IMG/VR virus record: IMGVR_UViG_3300007760_000001
Coordinates: 88,524 to 152,523 of that record
From: a virus
DNA: 64,000 nucleotides
Strand: one strand, 5' to 3'
Each line of letters begins with the position of its first letter. The first letter of the stretch is position 1. Both the position numbers and the translations under genes were made by a program. Positions 11,328 to 62,629 of this stretch are shown in pieces. The notes beneath the pieces are model-generated. The model was not told where the DNA came from, ran no database searches, and saw only the letters and a program-made list of their open reading frames with translations.

Positions 11328-14300
11328 TTAGCCTTCCTCATCTCCAAGGACATTCACATCAGTTGTCCATGCTGTGCCATCAGCGGTTTCCACATCAAAA
11401 CTCAACTTGATATTACCGACCCAAGCTCCCGCACCAAGGGTGCCTTGCAGATTTCCACCTAAAGAGTTGTTGTTCGACGCATTGCCGGGACCTACGGCTA
11501 CTTCAAGGTAAACCCTTGCTCCCGGAGGTAGCATTGATCCCGATGCGGCGGGGATACCGTAGCGTTCAAGGATTAACTCAAGCCAGTTACCCACCCGCAT
11601 TTGTCGAAGCATCTCTGAACTCTCGATAGGAACCGCTTCAAGGGTTTCGAGTTGACGACCATACCTACCAACTCGGAGGCGAGGATCGTTGTAATCAAGT
11701 TTTGGATTACCGGGTTGCTCAGTTGCCTTTCTGGGATGAATAGGCAACCTTGCCAAGAGACCTGACCCAACCTCTCCCATTGGCTCATGGTAAAAATCAC
11801 CAACGGGAGTAAGCGCAATCGTGAACCCGTGTGGGCATGAGTAGCCCGCTTCCAGGTTAGACTCGGCATAACTACCTGCTTCCGCTGTCGGAGGCGGGGG
11901 CATCGTTCCTGAGTGGGCCACAGTAAGACCCGTAAGGGTCGCCGCTGACAAAGACTGTGGATAGAAACCGGAGAACGCTTTCCCGTGAGGAATCAAACCA
12001 CTTGTAAAGGCAGACCGTAGTCCCCCACCCGTCCTTGACTGTCGTGGGAAAACAGATGCTTGTACCCGACTGTACTTCGCATGACTAAAGACACCATCCA
12101 ATTCTGTGGCATCATCTTTCCAACGAGCGAAGTCCATCCCGCCCCAAAGTACGGGGTTATAGGAGTTCACAAACAGGCCCTTATTAGCGTCCTGCATGTG
12201 AGCGGGAATGGCGAGCCAAAGGTCGGGAATATCCCACGAATGTAAGTGACCACTCAATCCCATCGAACCTGACCCCGCAAGGGTATTAGGGTCAAAGTAA
12301 CTGAGGTCGTCTGGTCTTTCTGAAGCTGTGCCGAACCCGTACTCATAGAAACCACCAGACCAATCGGGCGTAGGGTTCCTGACGGGAGCGTTAAACTCAT
12401 AGCTCTTCCTTGCGACTATGCTTGGTTTCGGACCAACCGTCACAAAGCGTTCCATGGTGTTTGGCATCATGTCACCAGCTTCACGGTTGCAATACAAAGG
12501 TACTACAATCGTTCCGCCGGGGAATCTTTGTTGATGTGGGTCGTGCCTTGTCAGGCTGTTTGAATTGTGGGTGGTCGAAGCTGTGGGAGCACGGCCACCA
12601 AACGGGAACCCGCTGTTTCCTGAGGATTTCGCAAAGTCGCTGCCATCATTGGCATCCCAAACTCGTGCTTGCGATCCTGGGATCTCCAAAATCAAGTTGA
12701 AGGCCATATACTGAGGGTCTAAAACATCGGCCCCCATCGCAGTGTTGGTTTCTAACGATGGTAGATAGCCGGGGGTTTCCCAAGGACGACGATCTCCACC
12801 AAGACCCGATGTTGCCGCTGGGTCATTACCCCATACTCCGAAGTTCACCCAAAGACGGTTGAGTCGAACGCCTCGTGGTGCTCGCCCCGGATGTGGGCTG
12901 TTCAACCCTGATCCTGGAGCAATCGCTTGCGTAAAGGCTTCCGTCAAATCCACCTTCAAGGTTGGGGGTGGGTGATCCGCACCCGGCCCATTGGAAGCCC
13001 AAGCGGGCTGGTATAACTGCCACCACTCACCTGCGGGCGACCACATATAAGTAGAGTCAATCGGAGTTAGCCATTCGGGGTTCGGAGCGGACCAACCTCC
13101 AAGTCCAAGCAGCCCCTCCATAAACACCTCTAAAACCAGCTTCAGAATATCCATCAGCTTTTCAATGAAAGCGACGACCAACCAAACCAGTTCGTAGATG
13201 ATGTTTTCCAATACCAAGAGCTTCGCATACGCAATTTCAATTGCTTGGTCGGCGGAGATTGTTGTGCTCTCGAAGGCGTTAAGCAAGAACTCAAGAGTGT
13301 TACCCCCGTGGATCACAGCAGCGGCTTCGGCGGCCACCTGAGCCGCTTTATTTGCAAGGTCATTACTGATATCCGTAGCCCATCTGCTCGCCACATCGAG
13401 CATTGACGAATAGCAATAATCATCCAAAGCTGGGGACTCGAATTGTCCCAACATCGCTGGAAATACAAAATCCCAATCGCCCAAGGCGTACATATCGTTA
13501 CTATGGTCAGACCAATCTGTATGCTTGAACTTATTCTTTAAGCGATTGAAGTCATTCTCGGCCAAGGCTTGTGCGGTGGTTGCGTCTGCCAGTTGGTCAT
13601 TAAGAAGAGTAATCTGATCGTTGAGGAGCGTAAGATGCTCCATGAGTTCGAGCTTTTCTTGCTCCTTCTCCATTTTGTCTGCAAGCATCATGTTACGCAC
13701 ATGGACATGCTTTTGCAGATCCTGTTGGTGAGCCTTTCGATCCTGTAACAGAGTCCACACAGTCATGTCGTTAGCGTAGTGGTCAGCTTCGTGGTCGCTG
13801 TTCCAATCGTAGTTCGTCTGAAGGTCATCCTCGATTGCTTGAATCATGGTTTCGAGATTATCGATAATGGTGTCTTCTGCGGCGATCAGAGTAGCGAGGT
13901 TAGCAAGAATCGTGTCGATAGCAGAGATCTGAGCCGTTACTGTACTTGCGTCGGCAGTTGTCGCCGTAAGCTCTGCGGTAATCTGGAAAACGAGCTTCGT
14001 CGCCGCAACCAAATCCTCATCCGCTTTCTTTAGATAAAGCTCAAGAGCATCTTTCTTGGTCTTAAGATAGTCGATCCAAGATAGGACTTCTTGTTTGTCG
14101 CCTTTTAGATCCTCTAATTCGGCCACTAAAATGTGGTAGTTGGCACTGACGGGATCTGCCAGACAAGCCTTTAGTAGTTGATCTGCGACAATAAGGTTGA
14201 AGAATTCAGTCAGTAGTTGGAGAAGAGCGGCGGCCAAATCCATTAAGGCCGTCAGCATCGGGCCAACAATCATGGCTACAATGTCGCCTACGAGCTGAAT

Positions 14301-20300: not shown

Positions 20301-23300
20301 AACATCAAGCCCAAGCCCTACGGCCCCCATCAAGGATTGATCGTTAAACCAATCGGACATGCCTCCAGTTGGGAACTTGACATCAAATAAGTAGCCCTTG
20401 CCACTTCTTCTAAAGCTGGTGATGGGGAAAGAGCCTGCATATCGCCCTAAGGGGCGGGTGCCGCTTCGTTCAAAACCAAGTTCTTGAACATTCCCTCGCA
20501 AGGTAAGAGAGTGGTGATCCCACGACCCCGTGTTCACAGACGTGGGGTACTCTTCAGGTCCACTCACATAGGAGTTATCTCCATAGAACAATCCACAGCG
20601 GGACTTCCCTGACTGGTGCTCAAATGTCCCACCGAGGAAATGAACTAAACTCTCTCTCTCTTTCCCGTCACTACTGGCTGGCCGCACTTCCAACAATACG
20701 TTGTGAAAGGGAGCGGCTTTCCGATGAAGCTCACTTGCGTTACTGGCATTCATGCCACCCAACTCGCTCTCAATATTGAGAGCGACCCCTCGGCCACCGC
20801 ACAAGAGAGCAACTTGGTCTCCCGCTTCTGCGGGGTGTCGATGATCGTTTCGAGCCGTGAAGATCAACTGGTGTTCGTACTTAACCGCATCTAAGGTAAG
20901 AGGTCCGGCGGTAGTCGTAACCGTCGTAGTGTTCTGCAACTCAGGGTTTTCAGATGGGGTCAGGATATCCTGAAGGAAGTTAGCTTTACCCAACGCAACT
21001 AATGTAGAGGGGTTCTGAGAAGTCGCTACGTCGGAGTACAGTCCCGTCTTATTGAGGTAATCGGCTAACTCAATTGGATTGGTGCAAGTAACTGGGTGGA
21101 CGGGTTTTGGGATCACCATCTCATAGTGAATCCAAGCCGTAGGTGTTCTTGGGTCTGCTGATCGTAGGTCGATCAGAAATCTCAATGCTGTCTTGATCTC
21201 AACTGGAAATTCAAGTTTAGATACCAAGTAAGGAGTTTCGGGGAGGGCTTGAATTTGCCGCCCCGTGGCCGTCAGTACCTTTTGCTTGTGAACAGGATCT
21301 GAGTCAAAATCTACAACATTCCGATTGGCACCCGTTAGAGTCCGTAAACCATAGCGTCCAGCAGGGGTTCCTGTGTTCAGGTGGTCAGAAATATCTTTCC
21401 AAGTAAGCACCCCATCAGAAGTGGCGGTAGCCCACCAAAGCGGATTTGATGCCGCTTCCGCCCTACGCTTATCGGTGGACCCGATGGTAACCATGTCTCG
21501 TTTGAGGGCATACCCAAAACGCTGACCCTTTGCCGGGATGTTTTGGGTAATGACAACAGAGCTAACTGTGGCACCCTCAACAACCGCCGATAAAAGATTC
21601 GCTATACCGTCTTGTTCGTGGGACTCGAAAAGCTCAAGAGCGTTCCAATCTCCGGTATTGGTATTCCGAAGGGCGATTGAAAAACCATTAGGAACAGGAG
21701 AGCCTACTTTTGGTTGGACTCCAATATCCTCGATCAGACCAGCGACCCGTCGCCATTGAACACCAGATGCGGGAGAGGACTCCCAATTGGTGTACATACG
21801 ACCACGAGAGACTTCGATTCCGATCTCATGTGTTTGATCGGGGGCTGGCAGGTGGCCAGAAGGCATCCATGGAGGATCGTCAGTTGACCATCGTTGCGTT
21901 TTAGCGTCGAAATGGAACCGAGAGATTTCTGATGTTTTCCCGTCTCCGAGGTCTCCAAGAGGGAAGAAGGCTCGCAACTCTTCGGCGGGACCAGCCACCG
22001 CTGTCGGCATGACCGTCATCGAGCCGTCGAAATTGTAGGTCACATTTCCGTAAGCTAATCGGACAACATCCGTGCGAGCACTGCTACCGTAAGTCGTATC
22101 AAAACGATGATCTAAATCCCCACGGTGCCTGAAAAAAACACCCGTATCTTGATTAAGAGTGATCGTGTTTGGCCCTATCGTTGAGAAAGGCCCTACTCCA
22201 ACTTGGAAGTAGATTTGTCTGAAGGAGATTTCCTCTGGACCCCATTTGATCCCGTCGTAATAGATATGGAGATCCGACAAAGGATGGTGATCTTGCGTAT
22301 CCAAATAGGGAAGACCAGAAGGCTGCATCGCAAGGGTGAGGTGACCCGTTTCTGGGAAACTCCCTACTTCAAAGGAGCCTCGAAGTACCGTTAAGGTATC
22401 CCCCCAACTGTAATCCTTTACCTTGGGAAGATGCCGCAACATCTTTTTGCTTGAGAAGACATCTCGTTGAGTGGGGTTTGGGTAACCCAAATTTGCCGAA
22501 TGTAGATCCCCGCCCGTCATTCGGACAGAGGAACCTCGTTGGCCGCCTTCCATAGAGTAAGGCACAAAAGCAGCCCATAAGAGAGGCCGCCCCGCCTTAT
22601 CCAAAGCAATGTCTCCGCCCGGTTTAGGGGTGTGGGAGAACTTCACGACACCCGAAGCGTAATCAATGTCTACATATTGGGTTTCGTCTAAATCGGGATC
22701 GAGAATCAACTCACGGGAAGCTAATGGCCTCTCATAGTCTGGTCGTTCAGCTTTGCTTTTATCCGAAGGGAAAAGAACCATTCGGAAACCGAGGTCCAAA
22801 AGACTCCCAGGATCAGTGTACTTTTGTGTGTTCGGGATCGCTCGATCTGCTCGTGCAGAAGAGCCTCCGCCGGGAACATCGTTTGTCCCATGCACCTTTA
22901 AGGAACGGCCAACTTCTTTCGGGTCGATCAAACCCGTCAAACGAGCCGAATCTAACGCATCGGCATCAAAGTTAACCCCTGGCCCGTGAAGAGAATCAAT
23001 CCCATCGTGGGCGGTACAATGGAGTTCGCCAACACCCGGCCCCTGAGTACGTAACTCGTGGTTAGGGTTCGCCAAAAAGAAGGGAACCCCTGTTTCAGGG
23101 TCTACGGTGTTGTGGTGTCGCAGTTCTACAAAGTATCCCTTTGACTTCGTTCGACCAATCTTGACTGCTTCAAAATAGCCGAGAGCACGTTTCGCCGTTG
23201 GGCAAACGGCAGGTAGACCTTCTTTGTCGAGATTGACTTCCGAAATGTGGATAATCGTAGTTTTCGGGTCTCCACCACCCAACCGCTTATCAAGCCACTC

Positions 23301-24365: not shown

Positions 24366-24416
24366 CAATCAATCTCCATGCTTCTGTGAAAGGCGGGGTA
24401 TAGGCAACGCATTGGA

Positions 24417-27821: not shown

Positions 27822-27822
27822 C

Positions 27823-31254: not shown

Positions 31255-31268
31255 TCTCTGCCCCTACC

Positions 31269-31916: not shown

Positions 31917-31991
31917 TTGTCTAACTCCTTCGGGGTCTCTCTCTCCGTGTATTCAATAGGTCGATTACCGATAGAACGGCCTGTTGTTGAA

Positions 31992-37013: not shown

Positions 37014-37017
37014 ACAA

Positions 37018-38037: not shown

Positions 38038-38043
38038 TATTAG

Positions 38044-38050
38044 CCCCTCT
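38044..38050 (-). promoter_or_regulatory. Ribosome binding site AGAGGGG deciding the start at 38037
   Basis: On the minus strand AGAGGGG ends six bases before ATG 38037. The longer reading frame to 38079 has no comparable site at a suitable distance, and its extra 14 residues have no counterpart in the fibre motifs. Confidence 0.7.
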
Positions 38051-38090
38051 GAGTATATGAAATTGGCATCAGGGGACATGCCCCTCTCAT

Positions 38091-38100
38091 AGATAAGGGA
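38091..38100 (-). promoter_or_regulatory. Possible promoter element TCCCTTATCT
   Basis: This lies in the 93-base gap between the beta-helix spike gene and the 324-residue fibre gene, 54 bases before ATG 38037. It resembles CCTTTATAGT at 2214 and CCCTTATACT at 10071. Just upstream on the transcribed strand is TCTATATTTG (about 38102-38111), a 10-mer that also occurs in the 2140-2291 leader. The 5-bp AGGGG/CCCCT hairpin at 38071-38085 lacks a T-run. Confidence 0.25.
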
Positions 38101-38130
38101 CCAAATATAGAAACTTGATTGACGACTATT

Positions 38131-40047: not shown

Positions 40048-40059
40048 CTCTCCGCTCCA

Positions 40060-46145: not shown

Positions 46146-46148
46146 ACA

Positions 46149-46156
46149 CTTCCTCT
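46149..46156 (-). promoter_or_regulatory. Ribosome binding site AGAGGAAG deciding the start at 46145
   Basis: On the minus strand AGAGGAAG is followed by TGT and ATG 46145. No such site precedes the alternative start seven codons upstream. Confidence 0.65.
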
Positions 46157-46191
46157 GTCTGACCATAGGAAGCTATAGAGAAACCAACCAA

Positions 46192-47127: not shown

Positions 47128-47130
47128 TTG

Positions 47131-49824: not shown

Positions 49825-50133
49825 TTAGATGCCGCCCCCATGCTTGATCTTCTTGATCTTCATGTGAAGGTCTTGGACAAGTGCTCGATCTTTCTGAAGC
49901 TGCATCTCTAATAGCTTTTGCACCTCAGTCATCATTTGAGCACCGTCTTTCATGTACTCCAACTCATCTGCACCAATGTCTCTGGTTATGTCCAACTTTC
50001 CCGAAGTCATGCCTTCTCGCAAGACTTTCAACTCAACCAGTTTCGCCCGAAGCACTTCCACCGTTTCATTGTGTTCGGTTTCTAAAGCCTCTCGGACTGC
50101 TTTTGCTTTATCTTTTGCTTCTTGATCACTCAT
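49825..50133 (-). CDS. Small coiled-coil protein, 102 aa
   Basis: I place the start at ATG 50133 because GGGAGG precedes it by five bases; the longer frame would overlap the giant gene by 62 bases without a binding site. The product is almost entirely helical: EAKDKAKAVREALETEHNETVEVLRAKLVELKVLREG at the N-terminus and EYMKDGAQMMTEVQKLLEMQLQKDRALVQDLHMKIKKIK at the C-terminus, joined by a short loop around GKLDITRDIGADE. This looks like a helical hairpin that could oligomerise. It follows the TGA of the 4164-residue gene by one base and precedes the 897-residue gene with TAAATG. A chaperone, spacer or small baseplate component is plausible; no family was recognised. Confidence 0.7.
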   Translation of the reverse strand: MSDQEAKDKAKAVREALETEHNETVEVLRAKLVELKVLREGMTSGKLDITRDIGADELEYMKDGAQMMTEVQKLLEMQLQKDRALVQDLHMKIKKIKHGGGI

Positions 50134-50134
50134 A

Positions 50135-53100
50135 TCAACCTCCCATTGATTCCTGTAAACGCCGCATACGCTCTCGTTCAATGAGGCGTTCAACAAGCTG
50201 CGCTTTCCAATTACGAATATTAGCCAAAGTACCGTCAGTTTTAGTTGTCCGAAGGAAAAGCCACGCCAACCGCTTCTGTCGAATACGGTCTGTCTTATCC
50301 AAAATCTGATCGATTCGTCCTAACAACAACGGAAACCCATCCTCCTCTGAGAACTTCGTATAGAAGGGATCTGGAGTATCGTTAGGGGGATGTTCAATAT
50401 CGAGAAGGATATCCTCCAAGATTACCCGTCGATCCAACGCCGATAAGCAATCGGAATCATTCAGGAAAGGGGCATACTGGTATTGGCCCGCCAAACCGTA
50501 CAAGAAGTTGTTTCGAGGAACCCCCAACCCTGTGTCTGGGATCGTCGGGTCACCTAAATCAAAGGAGTGTCGCTCGTTTTGGAAATCCCAATACGTCCCA
50601 CTCTTGTCTCCCCGCATGGCCCCCTCGAAGTTTTCCATAAGAGACAGAATCCGCTCACGGTGGAACAAAATCATCTCTACCGTGTCATCTTTCAGGAACT
50701 TCGTGGGTCGAATGACCTTGTACGAAAAGGGTCCAATCGAGAACGGGGTTTCCTTGAAGGAGTTGTGGGGAGGAACCCCTGTTTCACCCCCTGGCTCATC
50801 CCAAGCGGGGCCGCCATTCGCCCACAGTCCTTGATGGGGATCTTCTCCAGCGAACGCCGTGGGCCGTAGATCCCCTTGACCTTCTCGACCGTTTGCCGTC
50901 CCATCCAGCGGATCAATCTCTCCTGATAAGGAAGATGCGCTAATCGTTGGGTAAAGGGCGAAGAAATTAAGAGGGGTAGACCCGCCTCCGTGTAGCTTAT
51001 CAATTGGATTTGGTTGGCCTGAAGACCCGATGAGTTCGGAAGCTCCGAGCCGATTTGGACTCACCTGCACCCGTGTTTCTTCGATCTTCTCGATCTTGTA
51101 ATAGCCTCGGTTATCGTCAAGCTCGCCCGGATAACCTTTCTCGTAACCATCAGCTTCGCTGACTGCGGTGCCAATATCTCCAAAAGGCCGTAAGCCTTCT
51201 TCAACGGGGTCGGGCTGTTCTTGTGTGTTGTCCCAACCTTCCACTTCTCCGGCAGGGTCAATAAGGAGATAGTCCCCTTCCTCGATGCCTTCCGATTGGA
51301 AATTGATCTGGCCGTCCTCCAAGCCAGCATTTGTGTCCGTGAGAAAGTTTACGGACGCACCATATATGTCTGTATTGGGGTGTGGGGGATCGCCGGGTTC
51401 GGGAACGGGCAAGCTGGAAGCGTCCCACTTCACAATGCCGCCAGCGGCGGGGTAGCCGTTTTCGTCATTCCCCGGCCCAAGTGCCGCCCGCCGAGTCATG
51501 ATGATCTCTTCGGTAGCCAACTCTAAAAGCTGTTCGTTGGACTGCTGGTGAGGCACAGGTGGCCTGAACAAGTAGATTTCAAGCTGGTCCCCCGCTATGG
51601 GATCGTCTCCCACAAACCCTGGCGGCCCGATCTGAATCTCTGTTCCTTGCAGCCAACCAGCCCCTATATCCTCCAAGGTGCCTTCGACCTTGCTGATTTC
51701 CCCCCAACCTCGAAGCTCCCCCGTGGTCGTGTTCATCACTCGCACAATGTCGCCAACATTGATGTTCACATCATCATCGGTAAGAGGCCCAAGCTGAGTT
51801 CCCCAACCTGTAATGTCTTCGGCATCGGGTGGGGGCTTCACTATCAACTTACCGAAGGTGTACCCCTGCGTATAAGAGACACACTCGGAACGGCGGGTTT
51901 CATAAGCGAAGCGTAAGCCCTTCATGGCATCCGATAGTGGGTCCAAAACATAGTTATGGAACCTACGGATGCGACGAACGGAGAACTGTACTCGTTCTAC
52001 AAAGTGATCAAAGGGGTAATCTGGAACCGTGTCACCATCTTCATCAGCGATGAAGTCTAAGACAGTTCGTTCACCGACCTCATTCGGGTCAAGGCTTTCC
52101 TCTGTGGCTGGCACAGTGCCGTTATCATCACAAACAACTGAACGGGTCGCCCGACCTAAATCAAAGGTCGGCCTTGGGAAGTTGGGTTCAAGGAAAACCC
52201 CCGCCTCTGCCCAAAAGGTCGCATTGAATACCGTACCAGGGAGCAGACAGTTGAGACAGTTGTTTGCCACCGAAGCGGTGGGGTCGTTGATCCCAAATTC
52301 TCCACCAAGAGACAGAAACGAAATATCAATGTATGTGGGGATAGTCTCGTAGGCGGCCAGAGCGTTCTCGTCTTCTTGGAACTCTCCATGAACCCAACCC
52401 GTCGCAGGGGTCTTACCTACCAGAATATGTCCCTCTGGACCCTTATCGGGGTTGACCCCCATCCAATCGTGTTTGCGGATACGGGCACGGTTGTAAAGCC
52501 CGTCATAAGGCAACGGCGGTTCGTAATCCCCGTCTCCATGGGCGGTCCAAGTTTGGGTGTCCCCATAAGCCATATCTTCATTTTGAAGCTGAATATCTAC
52601 GAACCCACGAATAGCTCGATGCTCTCGTAAGCCGTCTACGCCGAGATCGGTCGCCCTTGGGTTCGGGTCGTCGGGAAGCTCGCTCCAATCATGGCCTGAC
52701 AGTCGAATATCGGGGTACTTGGTAGTGTTGGGGTGTTTGATATTGATTGGAAAGAACTTCGCTCCTGTGATGTTCTTTCCAACAGAAGCGATCACTAACT
52801 CTTTAGCGTCCTCGTAAGAAAGAACGGTGCCTCCCCCTCCTTTTGCCGTATCGAGATCAAGCGTAAAAGTTCCTGCCGCCGCATCAATCGCCGTGTATTC
52901 GCACCGAAGAACCGCTTCATCCAAGTCGGTCTGGTTCATACTGTCGGTGGGGTTTTCAAACAGGATGTAAAGGTAAGCCTCAAAAAGACCTACACCTCCG
53001 GGGTCTAACCAACTTGTTCCGTTCGTAGTGGGTGCGCCGTCAAAAGTTCGGAGACCTGAAACGGTAAGAATGTCGTTGGCCTCATCAAAAGCTGTGATAG

Positions 53101-56100
53101 CTGGAACACGAAGGTCCAACCACCCATCATTTGTGTTCCAATTAACTGTTTCTTCGGATGCTCGAACAGGTCGCATCGGGGCTTTTTGCCCGTTGATGGT
53201 TCCAGTTCCTTCCCAAGCGGGATCGGGATAAAACGTCCCCCCCGCTGGTGTCAGATTTTTCCCGTCCGAATGGTTTTGGGGGTCGAGGCCGTAGCGCACC
53301 AAATAGGTGCCGACTTTAGTAGAGGCGTACTCTCCTGGCCCTGTTTGAATGTAAACCACATCTCCCGCTTCCACTTCGGGGCACTTGAAGGAGCACTCAT
53401 CGGGATCGTTCAGATATGGCATAGTTTCATCCATACTGTACGTTGAGATACGATTCGGGAACGAGCTTGAACCCGTTAACGGGTCTGCGTCTGCGTCTTG
53501 GTGCCAGAGCATGTCCCCATATCTTCCTTCGGGCAGATTGGGGGGGATCACCAGCGAGGTTGGTGTCAGGTCAGAGGACGGGATCGCCGCTGTCTTGGCC
53601 GCTTCTGTGAAGGTGATTGGGACATTCCCGTGGGCTTCAAAGCCCATCACTCTCAAGACCCCATAACCAGTTCGCCAATAGCCCACACCGTCAATCGTAG
53701 GGGGTTCCTCTCCAGCAGGTATGTTGTCGGGATCGATATCCGTCATCCAATCGTGTCGAGGAAGGAAGGTGAACGGAACGCCCCCATTAACATGCGCCAT
53801 GTCGTTTACGTTGAGGGGGATCTCTACTGGCAATCCTATCCAGTTGAAGTAATCGGAGTCGGTTTCAATCGCTTGCCCCGTGACCTTGGAGACGTTCAGA
53901 TCCATTTCCAAGTTGATCTCGGAAATCGGATGGGTGGTGCCTCGAACTTTCCCGTTACGGACATCCACAGGGCAGGTGAAGGTCAGACGGTCTGAATCAA
54001 TGTACGCATTGACTCCATCGATAACCTCCACGCTCATAAGCACTTCCTCATAAGCGTCGGCAAAATCGCTCACAATGGCGGGGGAGTGATCAATAATATC
54101 CCCTTCCCACACCTCGGCATGGCCCCATGTGTAGCGTTCACGAGGGATAAAGGGGGCAATACTTGGGTCTCCCGAACCATCGTTGATTTCATACGGAAGG
54201 TTGTCCGTCAGGTCGATATGGACAAACCTCGTCCAATCGAACCATGAACTCACGGCGTTGGGATCATGGTCAGGATTAGCCAACCCTTCGTCGGGGTGGC
54301 CTGGAGGGAACGGGTCTGAATACTGTTCGGGAGCTTCGGGGTGGTAGGTCCGAATCACCATCACCGCACTCGGAGAGTCGTTGGTGGTGTACAGCCATTG
54401 TTCGTGCAGGGTTCCACCTACCCCATCGGGTGTTTGGATATACCCGATGGGGGAGCCGTCTATTTCAAGTTGGAACACATGCGCTGCACCTGCCCCGCCC
54501 ATAAGTTCGGGATCGTCTCCCATCGTGACTTTGACGACATCGAGCGTAAGGAGCACGGAGCCGTCTCCCGCAAGCGCATCGGGTTCGTAAGAGTAAGTGA
54601 TTGGCGGGCCGGGATCTTCGATCAAAGTCGCCCGTTGTAGAAGCTGGAAGGTCAGCTTGGTTCCGACTTCTGCTTGTGCAAGAAGGTCATTCAACCCCCC
54701 TGTAGCAACATCATATCCGGGCGTACCGCTGGAAGGATCGTAGTAGCCACTTCCAAACGGAGTGGTGTCGTTCGCCGCCCCGTCATCTACATTGAAGCCG
54801 ATGATCTCGAACTCAAGCCTTGTCTCGGTGTATCCCTGCTCATGGGGGAAAAGAGGGTCCGAACCATTTACAACGGTCTCTCGAACCCGAAGCCCCGACT
54901 CCACATAAATAGCGTCCGACTCGAAGTTCCCCATCGTCGCCATGGCCCGATTGATTTCATAGTTGATCGGGGTTTCAGGCTTCGACCGAGTAACGAATCG
55001 AGGGACCGAGATAACGGAATACCTGTCTGGCTCTTCTCCATGAACGGTGTAGCCGCCTACAGACAAGAACCCTTGGACCCCTGCTGGTGCAGGGAGTGGA
55101 GCACCTTGATCTGTTTCAATAAGGACCAAATCTCCCGCTCGGAGATCCCCCAACCCACTACCATCCTCGTAAGTACCACCCACAGGGGCAGCGTCAGCCT
55201 CTAACTTCAACCCTGACCCGTCTGCTTCTGCAAGAGGGAAAGCCGTGTTGAAAATCTCATCGGGATAAACAGACTTCCACACATGGGGGAGTGGGGTGAA
55301 AGTGCTGTCCTGCTGCATAATGGCGATAACGCTCGCCATAGCCTCCCTGAGCCGCACCAACTCTGTGTTGGTAGACTTCATATAGGGGAGGGTGTAATCC
55401 CCGCTGTCGTCCCGTGTCTCGCCTTTGAGGGCGGGGATCGCAAGGGGGGTCAAGCTGGAATTATAGAAATCCGCATCCCCCTCAATACGTTGATGTGGGT
55501 TCGGCCCGTGTTGCCCAAACATCTCGTGTATTCCGAGCATTGGAGTGGACCATTCAGGGAAAGTAAGGTCTCGAATCCGCCCGCTTCCTGAAACAGTGTA
55601 ATCAAAGCCTTCTCGGTAGGTGGGTAGGCTGGAAGCGTATGCTCCCAAGTCACTAAATGAGGGATCGTCGGGGTCTACGCCTTCCGTTGAAACCCCGTCT
55701 CCGACCAGCATGACCAAAGTATCAGAATGGGCCAGCGTGATTGGCTCCTCGTTGTTAGCGGGATCAATGATCATGTTGGGATTGGTGATGATGTCCCCTG
55801 AAGCAAAGGTCATCACGCAGCCCTTGATGATTTCTCCAACGAAGAGTTCCTTGAACTCCTCGTTCGGACCCCACCCAGTCTTTTCGTTGTATTTCGGAAC
55901 CACCATATCGCCATTCGGGTGTCCGAATTGGAGCCTCATACCAACGGCCCATGGTGGAACATGATCTTCCCAGTTACCCGTATTCAGGTCGGGCAATCCG
56001 TTTTCAGGGTCGGTGGTGGCAAACGAAGCTATGTTGGGCCAGCCCTCCTTTAGGGGGAAATCGGGCAAATCCACCACACTGGCGATTACGGCGGGGCGGG

Positions 56101-59100
56101 GGATCTCGGAAAAGGAATTTGGGTCTGCAACCCCACCATCAAACAACTCCTCGTCCAGTTCGGGGAACCCGATAATACTGTATCGAAACACCCGTGCTCG
56201 TGCGGTTCGTGGCCGCATGGTGGTGTCCGTAACATTTGTAATGGGGCCAATAACAGGGTTCTCCACTTGACCGATAGTCGATAGGAAAGTGCTTCGGAGT
56301 TTCCAATCCATGATCTTGAGGAAAGAATATGTCCCAAAGTCCATATTCTTAGGGTCAGCCCCTAATCCCGGATAGGTGGTGGTGAAGTAATTAGCCTTAT
56401 TCGGGAAGATGCGAGAAAGATAATGCGTCTCCTCCATCGAACGAATCCGACCCTTGATCTCAATCTGAGGCCAACCAGGAAAACGCCATCGGATACCTGA
56501 GACCCTAAAACCAATCACTACTCGGTCGTCCACATCGTTTTTGATGTATTCCATCTGATTGTCGATCAGCAGTTCTCGCCAATCGGAAGATGGCATTACC
56601 CCATCCAACTCTTCGGCAGAGTCGATGGAGAAATCTGTCGGGTCCACAATCAAATCATCTTCGTCTACGATGACATCTGTATCCGGGGGCATAAACCTCA
56701 AGAAGGCTCGCCCATACGCATAACGAGGGTTCAATTTCCCTGAAACAGGGTTGGTGAAGCCAGGGGGTGTGTATTCCAGCCCCTCTCCAACCCAAAAACG
56801 GAACTTACCGTCTCGATCTCCAACGATTCGGCCCGTAGCGGCCTCGCTGATCTGTTCAAACCCAACGCAAACTTCATTGAAGAAGCTCAGATAGGCACGG
56901 GCTGCCCGATCAGTGTCATACAAATGATCTTGTTCAACCTTGATCCCAACCCGACCGTTCTCCCAGTTCTTATCTCCACCAACAGCAAGCGTAGAGCCGT
57001 AAGAACTTTGCTTGGCGGCGGCCTTCTTGATGATTTCTGTTGCCGCTTCGCCCGCAAAATCCAACAGTGGGATGGCTCGGTAATAGAACGAGTCTGGTGT
57101 GTGATAGGAATACGTCCCCATCAGCAGGTTCCCCAACAAACCGTTGCCTTCAGATGGGGCAACCTCGTGAAGGTATCGAAGATTGAAAGTGGGGAACTGA
57201 GGGTAGCCCTCGACCATTTTAGGCTTCACTACTCGGATTCTAATCCTACGGAAAGTTAGCCGTTGGTCGCTCTGAATGTACTGTTGGATTGGGTACTGGA
57301 AATCGATATCCCCTGTTTGGGGATCAGCGATATAGTCTTGGAACGGGGTCATTGTGCGACCTGGAAGGGTCGTCCCAAACTTATCGACCTCTCCCCACAA
57401 AACGACATCGGTCTCTTCGGATGCCAAAAAGGGCCTTCCAAAACCTAAATACGTCGTATCGTCAGGGGGGTAGATGGGTCGGGTGCTGACCAACACTTCA
57501 TCGTCCCCGTACAAAATGCCCTTAGGAAGGGGTGGGGTGATGGAAACGGTTGTCCTTGTGCCGTCCTCGGACAGTGCCAACCCTGTAATCGTATGGGGAG
57601 AGCCGCCGATCTCAATCAAGAAGCCTTGGCCCAACGCCTCGATCAAGTTCGCAAAGAAAATAACCTCTCCCCGTGTTTTCGGGGTTGGCTCAAAACCTAC
57701 GTTGGAGGGTTCGGGTTCATCGGGGTTTCCGAAAACAAGCCGTTCCCCTATCGGAACCAGAAACCCGTGTGGTGAAGAAGCTGTGTTACCCCAAAGGTTC
57801 CCACTTGGGTCTTCGGAGATCACCACGGGATCAGAAGGATCTACCTCTCTTGCTACAGGCCATTCCGTAATCAGGCTTAGAACATCATTTCCAGGTGCTC
57901 TGGACCCTGCTCCCGACGATGGGCTTTCAGGATAAAACGTAACTGTGGTTAGGTCTGTTTCCGCATCGTAGGCGACCGCTTTCAAGTAAAAGAGAAACGA
58001 CCCAAGACGCATCAGTTGGCCGGGGTGTAGATCCGCACTCCGATCTTCTAAAAGCTCAAATGAGGATACCTTTCCATCAAGGAAAAACGGTGGGCGGTAC
58101 ACGGGAGGTGCCGAAACCGTATAAACCGACTCTCCCCCAAAGGCTTCAAGCACCGCATAAGTAATCGTGACCTTACGGCCAGCCAAAGTAGCGGCATATG
58201 TCCCATCCCAAACAGGAGTCGTCTCAATTATGGGGGAGTCAGGGTCTAAGGGGTCGGACAGCACAGCTTCAGGAAGGTCGGGTACATCGTATTCAAGTGT
58301 GATCTCATTCGTTTCGTAATCGACCGACGCTATGATCGGCCCATATTCTGAGGCCATCTCTGGACCCACATAGATAATAGGCTCAATGTCCTGACGGACT
58401 GTTCGCCCTGTCGGATTGAACTTGAAGGTGGTGTTATTGACCTTCTCACATTCTTCGGCTCGAACATGCAGCGGTAGGAACTCGACGATTTCTGGCAGGA
58501 TGTTGTCGTCGTCATCTTTTAGAAGCTCTCCCGCCGCATTTGTCGTCTGATAGGTGGCTTCCACAATTTGCCACTCAAGCAACTGCTCTCGGAACATGAA
58601 AGCACCAGCCATCGGATTGAGAAACACATCGGTTTGATCCTCTGTGACCATCCGAGAATCCCAATACACTTGCTCACCCATATTGTTCGCAATATCGATC
58701 TCGCTAAGAGCAATCGTGCCGTCAACCGAGTTCACCTCGGCTTTCCCCGCTTCCAACAGTTCGGGAGGGAAAAGAGTCTCTTCGTAAATGACGATTGCTT
58801 GACCATAATCGTCAAGAATCTGACTGCTGAACTTTAGCTCACGAGTATCTGCTGTAATTTCAACCCCTGTGGGGTCTTCACTGAAATCATCGCTTGTCGG
58901 AACTTCGACAAGCTCATCCGAAGCAATAAGAAGCGTGGCGATCCGAAGCCGATAATCCCCCGAAGCAAGATGGGTGTCGTCAGGGATATGGTTGGAAGTC
59001 AGAAACAAGGAAGCGTTCGCCAAAAGTCCTAACTCGGTAGTTTCCAACCACCGCACTGCGGCCCTTGGCGCAAAGTAAGATAGCCCGTCTACTTCGGATT

Positions 59101-62100
59101 CGATCAAAGTGTGGTGCAGCCCAAAACGAATCCGAACTCGTCGTTCACGAGCCAAGTCTTGACTCACATTCGCTATTAAAGCGTCAGTCCCGATCACCCC
59201 AACAGGAGATAGTAGGTGAATCTGAAACGTCTCTCGTGGCATGTGATTGAAGCGTTTGTAGACATAATCAACACTCAATTGATCGTCGATCTCATCGGGG
59301 GTTCGTAACGAGTAGACCTCCCACGAAACCACCCCATCTGAATCCGATGGGAAATTGGGCCACACGGTAAGAGTGTCCTCGTCAAACGCCTCGATCAAAT
59401 AGGAGCCGACAGAATCCCCTGTGAGGACTTTCAGGCGGGCACCAATGGCAATGTCAGGGATAGCGTTGAAGCCAACCCCCTCAGGCCCCGCTGAGTCGTC
59501 TGTGAACACATTCCCACCCTCATCGAAGGTGCCTTTCGCCCCCAAGGATAGAAGTGCTCCGATCTCCTGAATCAGGATAGCGTTCCCTGTCGCCCCTTCT
59601 TGGGGAAACAAGTAATCTTCTCCGTCTGTTTGATACTTATATCCGTCCGTACCGGGATCACGGCTTAAGAAGAAGCCTTTGAGGGCGGGATGTAGGCTTT
59701 CGGGAACAACCCCTTGAACCCCGAAGCTGATTGTAGATACGGGGGTCTTGGTTTGAAACGCTACCGCCCTACTCCCCAACCAAACAAAGCGACCGATCCC
59801 AAACTGGTGGAGGATATCCTCCATGTGGACAAGACTTCGCTGGTATGGACCATCAAAAATCTCAAAGAAAACCCCTTCATCAACACCAGCCACATCTTCC
59901 AGCGGGGCTTGTTGAAGGAACATATAGGGGGAGCCACCAACATCCCCCAAATAAAGGCTTTCAATGCGGTTCGTGGCCCGAAAGTCGGGAGTTCCGTCAT
60001 CGTTCCCCTTATTGAAAGGGGTTCTTTTGAAGCCGATGCAACCCCCGGTATCTGGTAGCCAGTTCAAGTCTAATGAGGTGCCAGCCAAATTGACATCTGT
60101 AAGGGGGTAGGATGTCTTCCAGAAGGGGTTGAAGCCTAAAGCCGCACACCCTGAAAAGTCCTTCTCTCCGTCCACCCCTGGAAGGATCTCAATCATCCCC
60201 TCACCCGAAGTGGCCGTTAGGAAAAGACGGTTTCCGATGTAGCCAGCTTCGTAGCCGCTGCCGTCCAGAATAAGGTTGATGCTTTCGGAGACTTCCTTCG
60301 CCGTATATGTGTCGGGATCAACCGTCACTTCTTCTGTAAGTGAGAGAGCTTCCCAGATTTTGTAATGACTTCCCCCAACAACTAACTGCAAAACCTCGTC
60401 ACCACGAAGAGCGTAGGGTCCATCTTTCCGAGAAAACATGCGGATATCGGACGCATAAAAGGCTGGCGTAAAGTCTGTGTTTTGGAAGTAAAGTGGCAAC
60501 CCCTGTCGCTCATCTTGGTTAGGGGCTGACCGATTGAATACAAGGGGTGAAGTCTCCGCCCCACCATGATTAGAGGAGCCATAAGTAGTGTAAACCTGAG
60601 TCAGGCTTGGGCCAAAAACCCCATCCAAGTCATCGGGGTCTTTTTTGACCACCAAATCCTCAAAAGCCTTATTGGGGTTGAATAGGAAAGTGTCTCCAAC
60701 CCCCCGACACTTCCGAACTACGCCTGACTTCCCCGGCCTTCGTCCAACGACCTGACTAAAATTAGGCTCTCGCCCTGTCTTGTCCTCTTCGATCCTTATT
60801 CCAGAAACACCAAGGCCGGGAACTGGAATCGCTACGGGAGCGTTATACCCATCAGACTCCGTAAACTCATCGGTCACAAGTGCGGGAGCCTTTAACGGTT
60901 GGGCAACTCGGCACATAGCAACGCCGTCGTAGTAAAGGGTAGCCCCTGACCACAAAGGCTCAAAATCATCGTTTGGGGCATCCACCTCCCCCATATCCGC
61001 TTTTGTTATGTCAGCGGCACTCAACTTGATTTGACCTGTCGTCAAAGACACGCCAACTTGACCCGTGTTGATAATCGAATCGCCCAACTGCTGATCGTTA
61101 TCCGCAAACTGAACGTCCAACCACTGTCGATTTCCGATCTTCAGTAGGGGTCTTTCTGTAGAACTTGGGATCGGAGAAATGAATAGAGGTTCGAGATCCG
61201 TGCCAAGGATCTTCCCCACTTCACCTTCAGACTCCGACTCGAAGATATCTTGTATGTACCAAATAGTCTGGCCCGCATACTGAGCAAAGACTCCTGGGTG
61301 CCACTGAATAATGCCGTTCTTGTCCCCAACGATCCCAACGGGAGCGGGGTCAAGCACAGAAAAGTCGTAGGTGGCATCATCAATAATGCTGTCAGGTACA
61401 ACCAAGATCCCACGGAAACCAATCGTGCCTGCCTCATCGTCCCCTAAAGGGATTGATCCAGCATCAGGACGAACCCCTAAGCGCACCATGGCTACGGAAT
61501 CAGGGATTTGTGTGCCGACTAAGTAATCCCCGACAACCAGATTCTTTGGTCGAGGGGCTAACTGAGTTGTGGCTTTTTCAGCGTCCAATCGGCCCAAATT
61601 CTTGATGGGGCCGCCCTTGTAGGGTGCCCAACGCTGATCTTTCCCGCTAAACCCAAAACGAGTTTGAGAAGGGTCATTGCGAGTCCACCAAAACTTAGGG
61701 GGGGACAGATAATAACCAACCTCTGTGACCCGATCTCCTCGTTTATGGCTCAACCCCGCCACAGAGTTCTCAGTTGGACTCAGCACACCCCGATTGAAGA
61801 CGGTGTCCTCAACATAGATCACGCCAGAGTTGGGGGCGGGGCAAGAAATGTTGCCATCGGCTACCGAAAGGGTCACATCATCCCAATCGTCTGACCAATC
61901 CCCTCTACGGACGTTGATATAAGCCACCCCTGATATGGTTCGGCCACCGTCATCTGTCAAAATGACTCGGCTGCTGGCCGTCAAAGGAGCTAAAACCTGC
62001 GCCACTACCTCTAAGGCTTCAGGAACAACCTCTCCCTCTGGCATATAGAGTTCAAACGGCTCTGTAAGGGTCAGACTGTCAATGTCCAACACCTCCGCCA

Positions 62101-62629
62101 CAGTTACGGCGTATTCAGTCCCAAAGGAATCCTCAAAAATAATGGTGGCATCAGTGCTCAGTTCAGAAACAAAATTTGTCCCAAGCCCTGTCACCAAAGT
62201 CGAGTCGTTCATAAACGCTACGATGCCCGTCAAGAACACGGGAAGAGTATCGTCCTCATCGAGACTGTTACAGGACTCAGACCCGTTTACAGGTATCCTA
62301 CAAGAGCCTTGGGTCACCACGAAGTCGCCACCCTCAACCGTAGCGACACTCCCTGTGGTAGCGGCGAATACCAAGTATTCCTCTAATTCGCCCTCATTCC
62401 CCATAAGAACTGAAGAACGGTACTGATCGACACAAGGATGGGTTGGGTGATCTCCCCAAGCAGTTCGGAAGCCTTCGGAATACCCAAACCCAATGGGAGT
62501 GTGAGGTTCCGTTCCGTCAGAGAGCTTCTTAATGTCGAAATCGACACCCCCCCGTGGTGCCCCCGTTTTGGGGTCATTCGAGGGGGCTACTCTTGGCCCT
62601 CTAAGTACGTGTCCATCAAAATTGCTCAA
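50135..62629 (-). CDS. Giant virion protein, 4164 aa, beta-rich, TTG start
   Basis: The reading frame can only start at TTG 62629: the in-frame TGA of the preceding gene lies four codons upstream, and the first ATG comes about 75 residues in. GGTG is the only weak binding site, so translation may depend on re-initiation from that stop. The chain is acidic and beta-rich, with repeated short units of the form 'GD-V-I ... G-Y-V' (about 59345-59455, 55060-55160, 53270-53370, 51650-51780 and 51060-51280). Residues about 1845-1947 form a more conserved-looking helical part ending in RIVGDRDGKFRFWVG. CLNC occurs near 3458. The last 180 residues are helical and basic (MILFHRERILSLMENF; RIDQILDKTDRIRQKRLAWLFL). 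It lies between the spike-like genes and the wedge genes, so it is probably part of the baseplate periphery or tail tip. No enzyme motif was recognised, and it is not a tape measure by composition. Confidence 0.75.
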   Translation of the reverse strand: MSNFDGHVLRGPRVAPSNDPKTGAPRGGVDFDIKKLSDGTEPHTPIGFGYSEGFRTAWGDHPTHPCVDQYRSSVLMGNEGELEEYLVFAATTGSVATVEGGDFVVTQGSCRIPVNGSESCNSLDEDDTLPVFLTGIVAFMNDSTLVTGLGTNFVSELSTDATIIFEDSFGTEYAVTVAEVLDIDSLTLTEPFELYMPEGEVVPEALEVVAQVLAPLTASSRVILTDDGGRTISGVAYINVRRGDWSDDWDDVTLSVADGNISCPAPNSGVIYVEDTVFNRGVLSPTENSVAGLSHKRGDRVTEVGYYLSPPKFWWTRNDPSQTRFGFSGKDQRWAPYKGGPIKNLGRLDAEKATTQLAPRPKNLVVGDYLVGTQIPDSVAMVRLGVRPDAGSIPLGDDEAGTIGFRGILVVPDSIIDDATYDFSVLDPAPVGIVGDKNGIIQWHPGVFAQYAGQTIWYIQDIFESESEGEVGKILGTDLEPLFISPIPSSTERPLLKIGNRQWLDVQFADNDQQLGDSIINTGQVGVSLTTGQIKLSAADITKADMGEVDAPNDDFEPLWSGATLYYDGVAMCRVAQPLKAPALVTDEFTESDGYNAPVAIPVPGLGVSGIRIEEDKTGREPNFSQVVGRRPGKSGVVRKCRGVGDTFLFNPNKAFEDLVVKKDPDDLDGVFGPSLTQVYTTYGSSNHGGAETSPLVFNRSAPNQDERQGLPLYFQNTDFTPAFYASDIRMFSRKDGPYALRGDEVLQLVVGGSHYKIWEALSLTEEVTVDPDTYTAKEVSESINLILDGSGYEAGYIGNRLFLTATSGEGMIEILPGVDGEKDFSGCAALGFNPFWKTSYPLTDVNLAGTSLDLNWLPDTGGCIGFKRTPFNKGNDDGTPDFRATNRIESLYLGDVGGSPYMFLQQAPLEDVAGVDEGVFFEIFDGPYQRSLVHMEDILHQFGIGRFVWLGSRAVAFQTKTPVSTISFGVQGVVPESLHPALKGFFLSRDPGTDGYKYQTDGEDYLFPQEGATGNAILIQEIGALLSLGAKGTFDEGGNVFTDDSAGPEGVGFNAIPDIAIGARLKVLTGDSVGSYLIEAFDEDTLTVWPNFPSDSDGVVSWEVYSLRTPDEIDDQLSVDYVYKRFNHMPRETFQIHLLSPVGVIGTDALIANVSQDLARERRVRIRFGLHHTLIESEVDGLSYFAPRAAVRWLETTELGLLANASLFLTSNHIPDDTHLASGDYRLRIATLLIASDELVEVPTSDDFSEDPTGVEITADTRELKFSSQILDDYGQAIVIYEETLFPPELLEAGKAEVNSVDGTIALSEIDIANNMGEQVYWDSRMVTEDQTDVFLNPMAGAFMFREQLLEWQIVEATYQTTNAAGELLKDDDDNILPEIVEFLPLHVRAEECEKVNNTTFKFNPTGRTVRQDIEPIIYVGPEMASEYGPIIASVDYETNEITLEYDVPDLPEAVLSDPLDPDSPIIETTPVWDGTYAATLAGRKVTITYAVLEAFGGESVYTVSAPPVYRPPFFLDGKVSSFELLEDRSADLHPGQLMRLGSFLFYLKAVAYDAETDLTTVTFYPESPSSGAGSRAPGNDVLSLITEWPVAREVDPSDPVVISEDPSGNLWGNTASSPHGFLVPIGERLVFGNPDEPEPSNVGFEPTPKTRGEVIFFANLIEALGQGFLIEIGGSPHTITGLALSEDGTRTTVSITPPLPKGILYGDDEVLVSTRPIYPPDDTTYLGFGRPFLASEETDVVLWGEVDKFGTTLPGRTMTPFQDYIADPQTGDIDFQYPIQQYIQSDQRLTFRRIRIRVVKPKMVEGYPQFPTFNLRYLHEVAPSEGNGLLGNLLMGTYSYHTPDSFYYRAIPLLDFAGEAATEIIKKAAAKQSSYGSTLAVGGDKNWENGRVGIKVEQDHLYDTDRAARAYLSFFNEVCVGFEQISEAATGRIVGDRDGKFRFWVGEGLEYTPPGFTNPVSGKLNPRYAYGRAFLRFMPPDTDVIVDEDDLIVDPTDFSIDSAEELDGVMPSSDWRELLIDNQMEYIKNDVDDRVVIGFRVSGIRWRFPGWPQIEIKGRIRSMEETHYLSRIFPNKANYFTTTYPGLGADPKNMDFGTYSFLKIMDWKLRSTFLSTIGQVENPVIGPITNVTDTTMRPRTARARVFRYSIIGFPELDEELFDGGVADPNSFSEIPRPAVIASVVDLPDFPLKEGWPNIASFATTDPENGLPDLNTGNWEDHVPPWAVGMRLQFGHPNGDMVVPKYNEKTGWGPNEEFKELFVGEIIKGCVMTFASGDIITNPNMIIDPANNEEPITLAHSDTLVMLVGDGVSTEGVDPDDPSFSDLGAYASSLPTYREGFDYTVSGSGRIRDLTFPEWSTPMLGIHEMFGQHGPNPHQRIEGDADFYNSSLTPLAIPALKGETRDDSGDYTLPYMKSTNTELVRLREAMASVIAIMQQDSTFTPLPHVWKSVYPDEIFNTAFPLAEADGSGLKLEADAAPVGGTYEDGSGLGDLRAGDLVLIETDQGAPLPAPAGVQGFLSVGGYTVHGEEPDRYSVISVPRFVTRSKPETPINYEINRAMATMGNFESDAIYVESGLRVRETVVNGSDPLFPHEQGYTETRLEFEIIGFNVDDGAANDTTPFGSGYYDPSSGTPGYDVATGGLNDLLAQAEVGTKLTFQLLQRATLIEDPGPPITYSYEPDALAGDGSVLLTLDVVKVTMGDDPELMGGAGAAHVFQLEIDGSPIGYIQTPDGVGGTLHEQWLYTTNDSPSAVMVIRTYHPEAPEQYSDPFPPGHPDEGLANPDHDPNAVSSWFDWTRFVHIDLTDNLPYEINDGSGDPSIAPFIPRERYTWGHAEVWEGDIIDHSPAIVSDFADAYEEVLMSVEVIDGVNAYIDSDRLTFTCPVDVRNGKVRGTTHPISEINLEMDLNVSKVTGQAIETDSDYFNWIGLPVEIPLNVNDMAHVNGGVPFTFLPRHDWMTDIDPDNIPAGEEPPTIDGVGYWRTGYGVLRVMGFEAHGNVPITFTEAAKTAAIPSSDLTPTSLVIPPNLPEGRYGDMLWHQDADADPLTGSSSFPNRISTYSMDETMPYLNDPDECSFKCPEVEAGDVVYIQTGPGEYASTKVGTYLVRYGLDPQNHSDGKNLTPAGGTFYPDPAWEGTGTINGQKAPMRPVRASEETVNWNTNDGWLDLRVPAITAFDEANDILTVSGLRTFDGAPTTNGTSWLDPGGVGLFEAYLYILFENPTDSMNQTDLDEAVLRCEYTAIDAAAGTFTLDLDTAKGGGGTVLSYEDAKELVIASVGKNITGAKFFPINIKHPNTTKYPDIRLSGHDWSELPDDPNPRATDLGVDGLREHRAIRGFVDIQLQNEDMAYGDTQTWTAHGDGDYEPPLPYDGLYNRARIRKHDWMGVNPDKGPEGHILVGKTPATGWVHGEFQEDENALAAYETIPTYIDISFLSLGGEFGINDPTASVANNCLNCLLPGTVFNATFWAEAGVFLEPNFPRPTFDLGRATRSVVCDDNGTVPATEESLDPNEVGERTVLDFIADEDGDTVPDYPFDHFVERVQFSVRRIRRFHNYVLDPLSDAMKGLRFAYETRRSECVSYTQGYTFGKLIVKPPPDAEDITGWGTQLGPLTDDDVNINVGDIVRVMNTTTGELRGWGEISKVEGTLEDIGAGWLQGTEIQIGPPGFVGDDPIAGDQLEIYLFRPPVPHQQSNEQLLELATEEIIMTRRAALGPGNDENGYPAAGGIVKWDASSLPVPEPGDPPHPNTDIYGASVNFLTDTNAGLEDGQINFQSEGIEEGDYLLIDPAGEVEGWDNTQEQPDPVEEGLRPFGDIGTAVSEADGYEKGYPGELDDNRGYYKIEKIEETRVQVSPNRLGASELIGSSGQPNPIDKLHGGGSTPLNFFALYPTISASSLSGEIDPLDGTANGREGQGDLRPTAFAGEDPHQGLWANGGPAWDEPGGETGVPPHNSFKETPFSIGPFSYKVIRPTKFLKDDTVEMILFHRERILSLMENFEGAMRGDKSGTYWDFQNERHSFDLGDPTIPDTGLGVPRNNFLYGLAGQYQYAPFLNDSDCLSALDRRVILEDILLDIEHPPNDTPDPFYTKFSEEDGFPLLLGRIDQILDKTDRIRQKRLAWLFLRTTKTDGTLANIRNWKAQLVERLIERERMRRLQESMGG
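50139..50144 (-). promoter_or_regulatory. Ribosome binding site GGGAGG deciding the start at 50133
   Basis: On the minus strand GGGAGG is followed by TTGAT and ATG 50133. It lies within the last codons of the 4164-residue gene, so initiation is probably linked to ribosomes finishing that gene. Confidence 0.7.

Follow-up and report, generated by a model that had tools for sequence, protein, structure and literature searches.

What are two genes that each encode a protein of more than 4,000 residues doing in one tail gene set of a virus? The question is raised by a stretch of 64,000 nucleotides (hereafter, the window) that comprises bases 88,524-152,523 of the 152,523-base IMG/VR record IMGVR_UViG_3300007760_000001, its right edge being also the edge of the record. 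We denote the two proteins P0001 and P0002; below, L numbers designate loci, G and W numbers records, and g followed by a coordinate a gene of the window. We hold with moderate confidence that P0002 serves as a structural component of the baseplate in the contractile tails of a broad group of uncultured huge phages and that P0001 is an outer arm. The P0002 family, which is widespread and uncatalogued, probably supplies a part from which the tail baseplate is built; P0001 is probably an outer appendage of variable size.

11328..24365, minus strand: P0001, 4345 amino acids (aa), ATG start, probable size-variable appendage protein
50135..62629, minus strand: P0002, 4164 aa, TTG start, probable giant baseplate-module protein

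Both frames are real. The listing of open reading frames (ORFs) places P0001 at 11328-24368 (minus strand, 4346 codons) from an upstream TTG, and its relatives share the ATG at 24365, which gives 4345 aa; the start residues of both proteins agree with those of aligned relatives. The chance of 4164 open codons at the base composition of the window is about 10^-80, and the other five frames contain 93-232 stops across each giant gene. Furthermore, both genes recur on a second contig from this virus, IMGVR_UViG_3300007512_000021, where the P0002 gene differs at 4 of 12,495 bases and the P0001 gene is 99.98% identical to the window copy. The first-pass annotation, which described both genes as intact at these coordinates (4345 and 4164 aa) and as filling 40% of the window, is thus confirmed by the ORFs, the starts of the relatives and the second contig; the two genes occupy 25,533 of 64,000 bases (39.9%).

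It was also right that no described family is recognized for either giant: sequence searches of Pfam, PHROG and the PDB gave nothing better than chance matches. Pfam at E 0.1 returned 0 families in the two proteins, a result that does not exclude a catalytic domain, and the two PHROG matches of P0002 (E 0.054 and 0.074) are no better than chance. The best match of the family profiles in the PDB (E 0.031), an ATP synthase subunit aligned to a helical part of P0001, was read as chance. Searched by tblastn against 50,697 phage records, the first 2210 residues of P0002 matched one uncultured genome. No record was matched by a compact form of P0002 (see below), by the C-terminal 2,890 residues of P0001 or by a short P0001 relative bearing the base. 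No description of the P0002 family was found in the literature searched, which was by text rather than by sequence.

The window neighbors of the giants include, besides a Baseplate_J/gp6 protein (E 7e-20), a sheath initiator of the gp25 type and a beta-helix protein, which indicates a contractile tail module. The second contig extends about 17 kb past the right edge of the window and adds, in the order of transcription, two genes in chaperone position (371 and 420 aa), a tape-measure candidate of 1515 aa, two tail proteins (221 and 590 aa), a hub-type protein of 1627 aa with a weak tail PHROG match (E 8e-4) and the complete spike-position protein of 783 aa. No Pfam match was found in a scan of the genes of these additional ~17 kb, hub- and spike-position proteins included; "hub" and "spike" are labels given from position, from the matches to gp253 and gp254 of phage Tunturi_5 and from this one weak PHROG match. 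The order of the module is probably tape measure, hub, spike position, P0002, gp25, gp6. The remaining members in the window, all on the minus strand, are as follows.

63250..63999, minus strand: C-terminal part of the spike-position protein (783 aa, complete in L037), assigned from position and the match to Tunturi_5 gp253
62642..63316, minus strand: 224-aa hydrophobic protein (g62642), upstream partner of P0002 in 49 of 69 loci
49825..50133, minus strand: small protein after P0002, likely ATG at 50133 within the listed frame 49825-50196
47131..49824, minus strand: 897-aa protein with hydrophobic ends (g47131), the commonest neighbor of P0002 (54 of 69 loci)
46192..47127, minus strand: 311-aa conserved baseplate-module protein (g46192), in 38 of 69 loci
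45066..46166, minus strand: gp25-like sheath initiator with an extra N-terminal domain
41580..45065, minus strand: gp6/gpJ-like baseplate wedge protein (Baseplate_J)
40060..41580, minus strand: gp7/gpI-position protein, related to phage G gp189

How general is this arrangement? An IMG/VR scan seeded with a three-member P0002 alignment confirmed 90 stretches, of which the best 80 were kept; these represent 70 distinct loci, the window's own virus among them. One complete frame of 3477-4164 aa is present in 51 loci, 18 are cut by contig or locus ends, and one is split, the relative in L115 (9992-21132) consisting of two overlapping frames (2189 and 1589 codons) that reflect either a frameshift or an assembly error. 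The 48 distinct complete relatives are collinear with P0002 over the whole length, with 31-43% identity to it and conservation at both ends. Filling of the alignment columns is 0.85 for residues 1-100, 0.68-1.00 for residues 301-2500 and 0.96-1.00 for residues 4001-4164; it is low for residues 101-200 (0.25) and 2601-3500 (0.44-0.79). The ratio of nonsynonymous to synonymous substitution rates (dN/dS) ranges from 0.12 to 0.25 across the 8 closest pairs, and no block of 600 residues exceeds 0.42; these figures come from 12 proteins other than the window's own, in pairs that share members and hence are not independent, several with dS above 1.

Gene context was counted in the 69 loci other than the window's own, many of them truncated; in two (L106 and L128) P0002 is unlabelled, another frame having been preferred. 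Relatives of g47131 were recognized in 54 loci, the spike-position gene and the hub gene in 51 each, g62642 in 49, gp25 and g46192 in 38 each and gp6 in 36, and spike-position and gp25 genes both flank P0002 in 31 of the 69. Membership of P0002 in a contractile-tail module with hub, spike, gp25 and gp6 was accordingly found in the window, in L037 and in many of these loci, and the gene neighborhood of the giants bears out the previously proposed tie to baseplate genes. LR745208.1 (485 kb), which we take to come from the survey of Al-Shayeb et al. 2020, encodes a 3642-aa P0002 relative and has the P0002-g47131 pair on the strand opposite gp6; L087 and L092 are copies of this arrangement. The same genome contains, after gp6, one frame of 1763 aa (L010:36542-41833, minus strand), parts of which match the window genes 40060-41580 and 31992-37013.

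A profile of the P0002 core was also searched in 22 records and detected in 20 of them, including records of 402,383, 435,804, 485,034, 536,053 and 618,736 bases. This sample is not random, as 16 records were known or suspected to carry P0002, two are those of phage G and Tunturi_5 and four are informative; most of the 22 were likewise already known for the P0001 base. All four records reached via other genes (G013, G014, G018 and G025) contain the core. No P0002 counterpart was detected in phage G or Tunturi_5, either in the whole records with the core profile or in the tail stretches (50 kb in phage G) with the full and compact profiles. Among 75 pattern matches in bacterial genome contigs, one encodes a P0002 relative; its contig, 74 kb long, is binned with a genome from a metagenome. 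The first-pass annotation had suggested that a search of large-phage genomes would reveal whether the giants are conserved: the P0002 family occurs at no fewer than 70 IMG/VR loci, and the P0001 base at 45.

The architecture of P0002 can be read in part from compact relatives of 1744-1774 aa (L173, L177 and L187); a compact frame (1774-2262 codons) is present in 3 of the 20 P0002-positive records. Compared with the 1774-aa form, P0002 has about 2,400 extra residues, of which ~1,430 lie between the shared parts, ~700 inside the core and ~250 before it.

55325..61696, minus strand: P0002 core common to the compact relatives, residues 312-2435, with the signature FWWTRND at its start (hhalign probability 100, E 2.7e-96)
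50153..50323, minus strand: conserved C-terminal end, residues 4103-4159, matched by the end of the compact relatives (probability 89.8)
52190..54832, minus strand: least conserved, indel-rich stretch, residues 2600-3480
60110..60493, minus strand: small domain, residues 713-840, resembling the N-terminal domain of the gp25-like protein (hhalign probability 80)
54905..58162, minus strand: piece modelled by AlphaFold2, residues 1490-2575, mean predicted local distance difference test (pLDDT) 74.7, predicted template modelling score (pTM) 0.50
57479..57790, minus strand: predicted beta-barrel, residues 1614-1717, similar to one in T5 Dit pb9 and in phage tailspikes

Comparison of P0002 with the families of the window by hhalign revealed only small shared domains. 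Besides the gp25-like domain, residues 1027-1114 weakly resemble part of g31992 (probability 60) and residues 921-1081 part of the gp7-position protein (53), and the P0002 profile picks up relatives of the gp7-position protein (E 6e-5) and of g31992 (E 7e-4). Long internal repeats were considered and rejected, as self-comparison gave only weak region pairs (residues 421-568 with 1247-1330, probability 41-42; residues 1517-1594 with 1649-1721, probability 63-64). Because of these weak self-similarities, and because the compact relatives align a second time near residues 1197-1449 (probability 74-88), a few old duplications are likely.

The AlphaFold2 model, built from 47 sequences, covers about a quarter of P0002 and consists mostly of strands with one long helical stretch. 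The best fold match of its predicted barrel is the LKA1 tailspike gp49 (Z 10.3, 78 aligned residues, root mean square deviation 2.5), followed by a K1 capsule lyase (Z 9.2), T5 pb9 (Z 7.9; Foldseek probability 1.00, E 0.06), the tail tips of T5 and Chi (Z 7.0 and 6.9) and the JBD30 baseplate (Z 5.7). In the quarter of the chain that was modelled, this is the one barrel-like domain; Dit-type tail-tip proteins combine an OB-type barrel with a Dit ring domain. Matches of residues 2141-2415 to EF-Tu (Z ~6) were read as a common arrangement. Of six BFVD matches at E <= 0.001, five are unnamed and one, a cyanophage S-TIM5 "virion structural protein and packaging" (probability 0.11), has a low TM-score; none was used. 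T4 gp7, gp8 and gp10 are missing from the fold listings, which carries no evidential weight. P0002 is one long, mainly non-repeated chain of largely beta modules, a few of which resemble gp25-type, Dit and tailspike parts.

P0001 is organized differently, and its relatives were retrieved by searching with the first ~790 residues, so that sharing of this base among the 45 loci is by construction.

22002..24365, minus strand: P0001 base module, residues 1-788, common to 45 loci
13074..14489, minus strand: helix-rich insertion with hydrophobic ends, residues ~3293-3764, found in this virus and G002 among the six complete giants
11331..13073, minus strand: C-terminal part, residues ~3765-4345, conserved in the giant class
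24417..27821, minus strand: 1134-aa protein, relatives of which lie upstream of those of P0001 in 9 of 9 loci (other frames intervene in four)
10113..10901, minus strand: 262-aa protein downstream of P0001, recognized in 8 of 9 loci, the ninth being cut

The 45 loci contain 38 complete frames of 998-5090 aa, some of them duplicates, and seven that are cut. Among 32 distinct complete proteins, similarity extends to the base in all 496 pairs and to the remainder in 99, and single linkage divides the distal parts into six classes of 12, 8, 6, 4, 1 and 1 members; P0001 itself falls in a class of six giants (2954-5090 aa). In all 25 pairs that are closest in the base, the distal part is the less similar, and in L214 and L230 bases that are 70% identical carry unrelated distal parts. 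Differing distal classes on one base and, outside the giant class, faster distal divergence are what exchangeable receptor-binding appendages show. A constant attachment end joined to a variable distal end, as in a fiber, was found across the family as a whole but not within the giant class, the conserved C-terminus of whose six members is missing from the other classes. The insertion measures ~470 residues; in the four other complete giants its flanks are ~80 residues or less apart.

One of 37 P0001 base sequences has a PHROG match, to an entry named "virion structural protein" (E 0.0047). The model of the base (808 residues, 37 sequences) is compact (pTM 0.76, pLDDT 68.8) and gave no fold match above Z 5.9 and no Foldseek match at E <= 0.001; as the fold searches gave no adequate match, we leave the base without a fold name. 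The base profile was not found in W02 or W03. In G020, the record of L180, a piece of the base (profile positions ~543-649) recurs in three frames of 701, 1636 and 1213 aa, like a small exchangeable domain. Additionally, the window proteins encoded at 27823-31254 and 4296-10004 (minus strand) have a common N-terminal region of ~500-590 residues (hhalign 100), parts of which are also present in phage G gp211 and Tunturi_5 gp247 and which is perhaps a common fiber-attachment part.

The first-pass annotation had regarded both giants as beta-rich and as probably abundant parts of the outer baseplate or tail tip. The former description agrees with their low helix propensity and with the AlphaFold models, which cover one piece of each protein, and fails for the helix-rich insertion of P0001. 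With respect to the latter, the placement in a tail module stands, but the two proteins are of different kinds, P0002 being conserved in size and P0001 variable. Baseplate parts are normally present in few copies per particle.

Several observations weigh against the assignments that we favor. A hub or spike relative was not recognized beside P0002 in LR745208.1, L061, L067, L078, L082, L087, L092, L111 and L116, nor gp25 downstream of P0002 in L076, L081, L089, L102, L109, L110 and L117; the coupling of P0002 to the module is therefore not absolute. Only one P0002 domain, of ~100 residues, scored above Z 8 (8 of 999 chains), and Foldseek of the modelled piece against the PDB gave no match at E <= 0.001. 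As for P0001, the giant class is unrepresented among the 25 closest-base pairs, and its C-terminus is as conserved as the base (53.5% versus 48% between the window and G002), unlike a typical receptor-binding tip. No Pfam binding domain above the cut-off was found in the distal parts of ten P0001 relatives. Moreover, among the 20 P0002-positive records, which may be fragments, the whole P0001 base is present in 12, short pieces in one and none in seven. Presence in the particle, copy number, contacts and any role in firing are inferred.

Very long proteins in tail operons are often tape measures, and a passage of PMC8570332 gives 2893 aa for that of phage G; g47131, the neighbor of P0002, has a weak tape-measure PHROG match (E 0.004). 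Nevertheless, that one of the giants sets tail length in this way is extremely improbable, and we reject it on position and composition; the first-pass annotation had likewise taken the giants for probable outer parts rather than tape measures. The giants are of the beta type, with fractions of helix-favoring windows of 0.09 and 0.11 versus 0.35 in the 1515-aa candidate, and they are placed after the spike-position gene (P0002) and after gp6 (P0001). The candidate, a helix-favoring protein with a hydrophobic stretch (L037:11817-16364), lies between the two chaperone-position genes and the hub and has a weak single-sequence profile match to the Tunturi_5 tape measure gp257 (E 0.013). Given this candidate in the expected place on the longer contig, the tape measure is probably encoded there. 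Cleavage of the giants into several mature proteins is quite unlikely. Virion-protease processing is described for phiKZ in a passage of PMC13282480, and genes fuse and split in this group, the relatives of g40060 and g31992 forming one frame in LR745208.1; but the 48 distinct P0002 relatives keep a single frame, with constraint in every block tested, and the sole split frame among the 70 loci has the overlap seen in frameshifts or assembly errors.

A further option, which we consider unlikely although less so than cleavage, is that P0002 forms an outer tail structure (whiskers, a sheath coil or a collar), its gene simply happening to lie in the baseplate operon. In some records P0002 is separate from the operon, and phage G, a distant relative by its gp6, gp25 and hub genes, has an outer coil around the sheath according to a passage of PMC8570332. 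Yet P0002 was not found in phage G, and its usual place in the module and its weak domain sharing with gp25 favor the baseplate. For P0001, the alternative is that, instead of a receptor-binding arm, it forms another structural part of the outer baseplate and that its size classes reflect lineage-specific armor. The conservation of the giant-class C-terminus and of several internal blocks, equal to that of the base, and the failure to find a recognizable binding domain speak for armor; the differing distal classes on one base, the faster distal divergence outside the giant class and the location of P0001 among fiber-like genes (the beta-helix gene, g27823 and g4296) speak against it, and we judge it possible but somewhat improbable.

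If P0002 is a baseplate protein and P0001 an outer arm, copies of P0002 (six or a multiple) would pack around the hub, with the conserved first half and C-terminal end gripping the hub and the gp25/gp6 wedges and the indel-rich stretch 2600-3480 turned outward. P0002 would make the baseplate larger and could relay the signal of bound fibers to gp25 and the sheath, connecting the outer arms with the sheath trigger. The ~800-residue base of P0001 would dock the arm to the tail, and the exchangeable distal part, ~3,500 residues here, would extend toward the host surface.

Contractile tails and their core genes are already known, and the baseplate controls the time of firing; what is newly defined here is the P0002 family with its gene context and relatives. 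That a protein so large keeps its length and order across many phage contigs, yet was not found in two relatives of known genome, suggests that the inventory of contractile-tail parts is incomplete for huge phages. We tentatively suggest that P0002 represents a new class of core component of contractile tails (~380-460 kDa at 110 Da per residue) located between spike and gp25, that its compact (~1,770 aa) and large (~3,700 aa) versions record a change in size and that it could serve as a marker gene for a group of uncultured huge phages. Huge-phage baseplates would then be assembled around a protein that exceeds every known part of the T4 baseplate several-fold in size. In practice, the core was present in 4 of 4 records reached via other genes, and tblastn matched one genome of the phage collection. 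The two giants further illustrate two routes to very large virion proteins, a large size fixed across the group (P0002) and open-ended extension on a constant base (P0001).

In addition to the tail genes, a short N-terminal tag, LRxxLIRLAHxNPxLRxxLLPLLK, heads otherwise unrelated proteins. It was matched in 11 frames, two of which are copies of the one in LR745208.1. Of the nine distinct proteins scanned, one has a polyvalent-protein ADP-ribosyltransferase domain (E 1e-10), another a zeta-toxin domain (E 5e-12), and the remainder have no domain match above the cut-off. Proteins that bear the tag may be destined for packaging in the particle.

L038:3651-5351, 7428-8108, 9042-10688 and 10685-13279, and L041:3434-4396, minus strand: tag-bearing frames
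L010:4069-4731, L061:26243-27310, L116:6985-7818 and L146:21144-22259: tag-bearing frames

Elsewhere in this virus, a third giant of 3064 aa (L039:6473-15667, minus strand; record bases 26473-35667) combines laminin-G-type and bacterial-surface Ig-like domains and lies outside the tail module. Record bases 78525-82314 (L041/L042) contain five adjacent frames of 195-224 aa with the common start MKxxxLARKPFxGTVAxNxLTxGxGGxNI, which we take to resemble pieces of DNA methyltransferases, and three adjacent small genes at record bases 109-2171 (L038) share the N-terminal motif MNxRQLxxxWF. In the window, 979-2139 (minus strand) encodes adjacent paralogous small proteins of 185 and 192 aa that are 49% identical, and at 2292-3344 (minus strand) an IMP dehydrogenase/GMP reductase gene (Pfam E 1e-76) adjoins a holin-like gene.

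With respect to known systems, very large predicted structural proteins have precedents in phages of more than 200 kb: passages of Al-Shayeb et al. 2020 (PMC7162821) mention, in general terms, proteins of up to 7,694 amino acids in huge phages. Those passages name no family, position or conservation for the large proteins, whereas here one family is defined. P0001 is comparable to modular tail fibers in having a base and differing distal parts, and it differs from them in its giant class of up to 5090 aa, its conserved C-terminus and the lack of a match to any known fiber family. The likeness of P0002 to the accessory barrel of Dit proteins and tailspikes (T5 pb9, LKA1 gp49) is predicted for one ~100-residue domain of its 4164 residues. 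The module as a whole resembles the T4/P2 type (gp25, gp6/gpJ, gp7/gpI): the hub, gp25 and gp6 families match gp254, gp242 and gp241 of Tunturi_5 and gp185, gp187 and gp188 of phage G, and the 221- and 590-aa tail proteins match phage G gp184 and Tunturi_5 gp255/256. The spike-position family matches only Tunturi_5 gp253, the gene after gp6 matches phage G gp189, and no counterpart of g47131 above chance was found in either phage. The modules of phage G and Tunturi_5 differ from the one described here, in which a protein of 3.5-4.2 thousand residues and its 897-aa partner are located between the spike-position gene and gp25.

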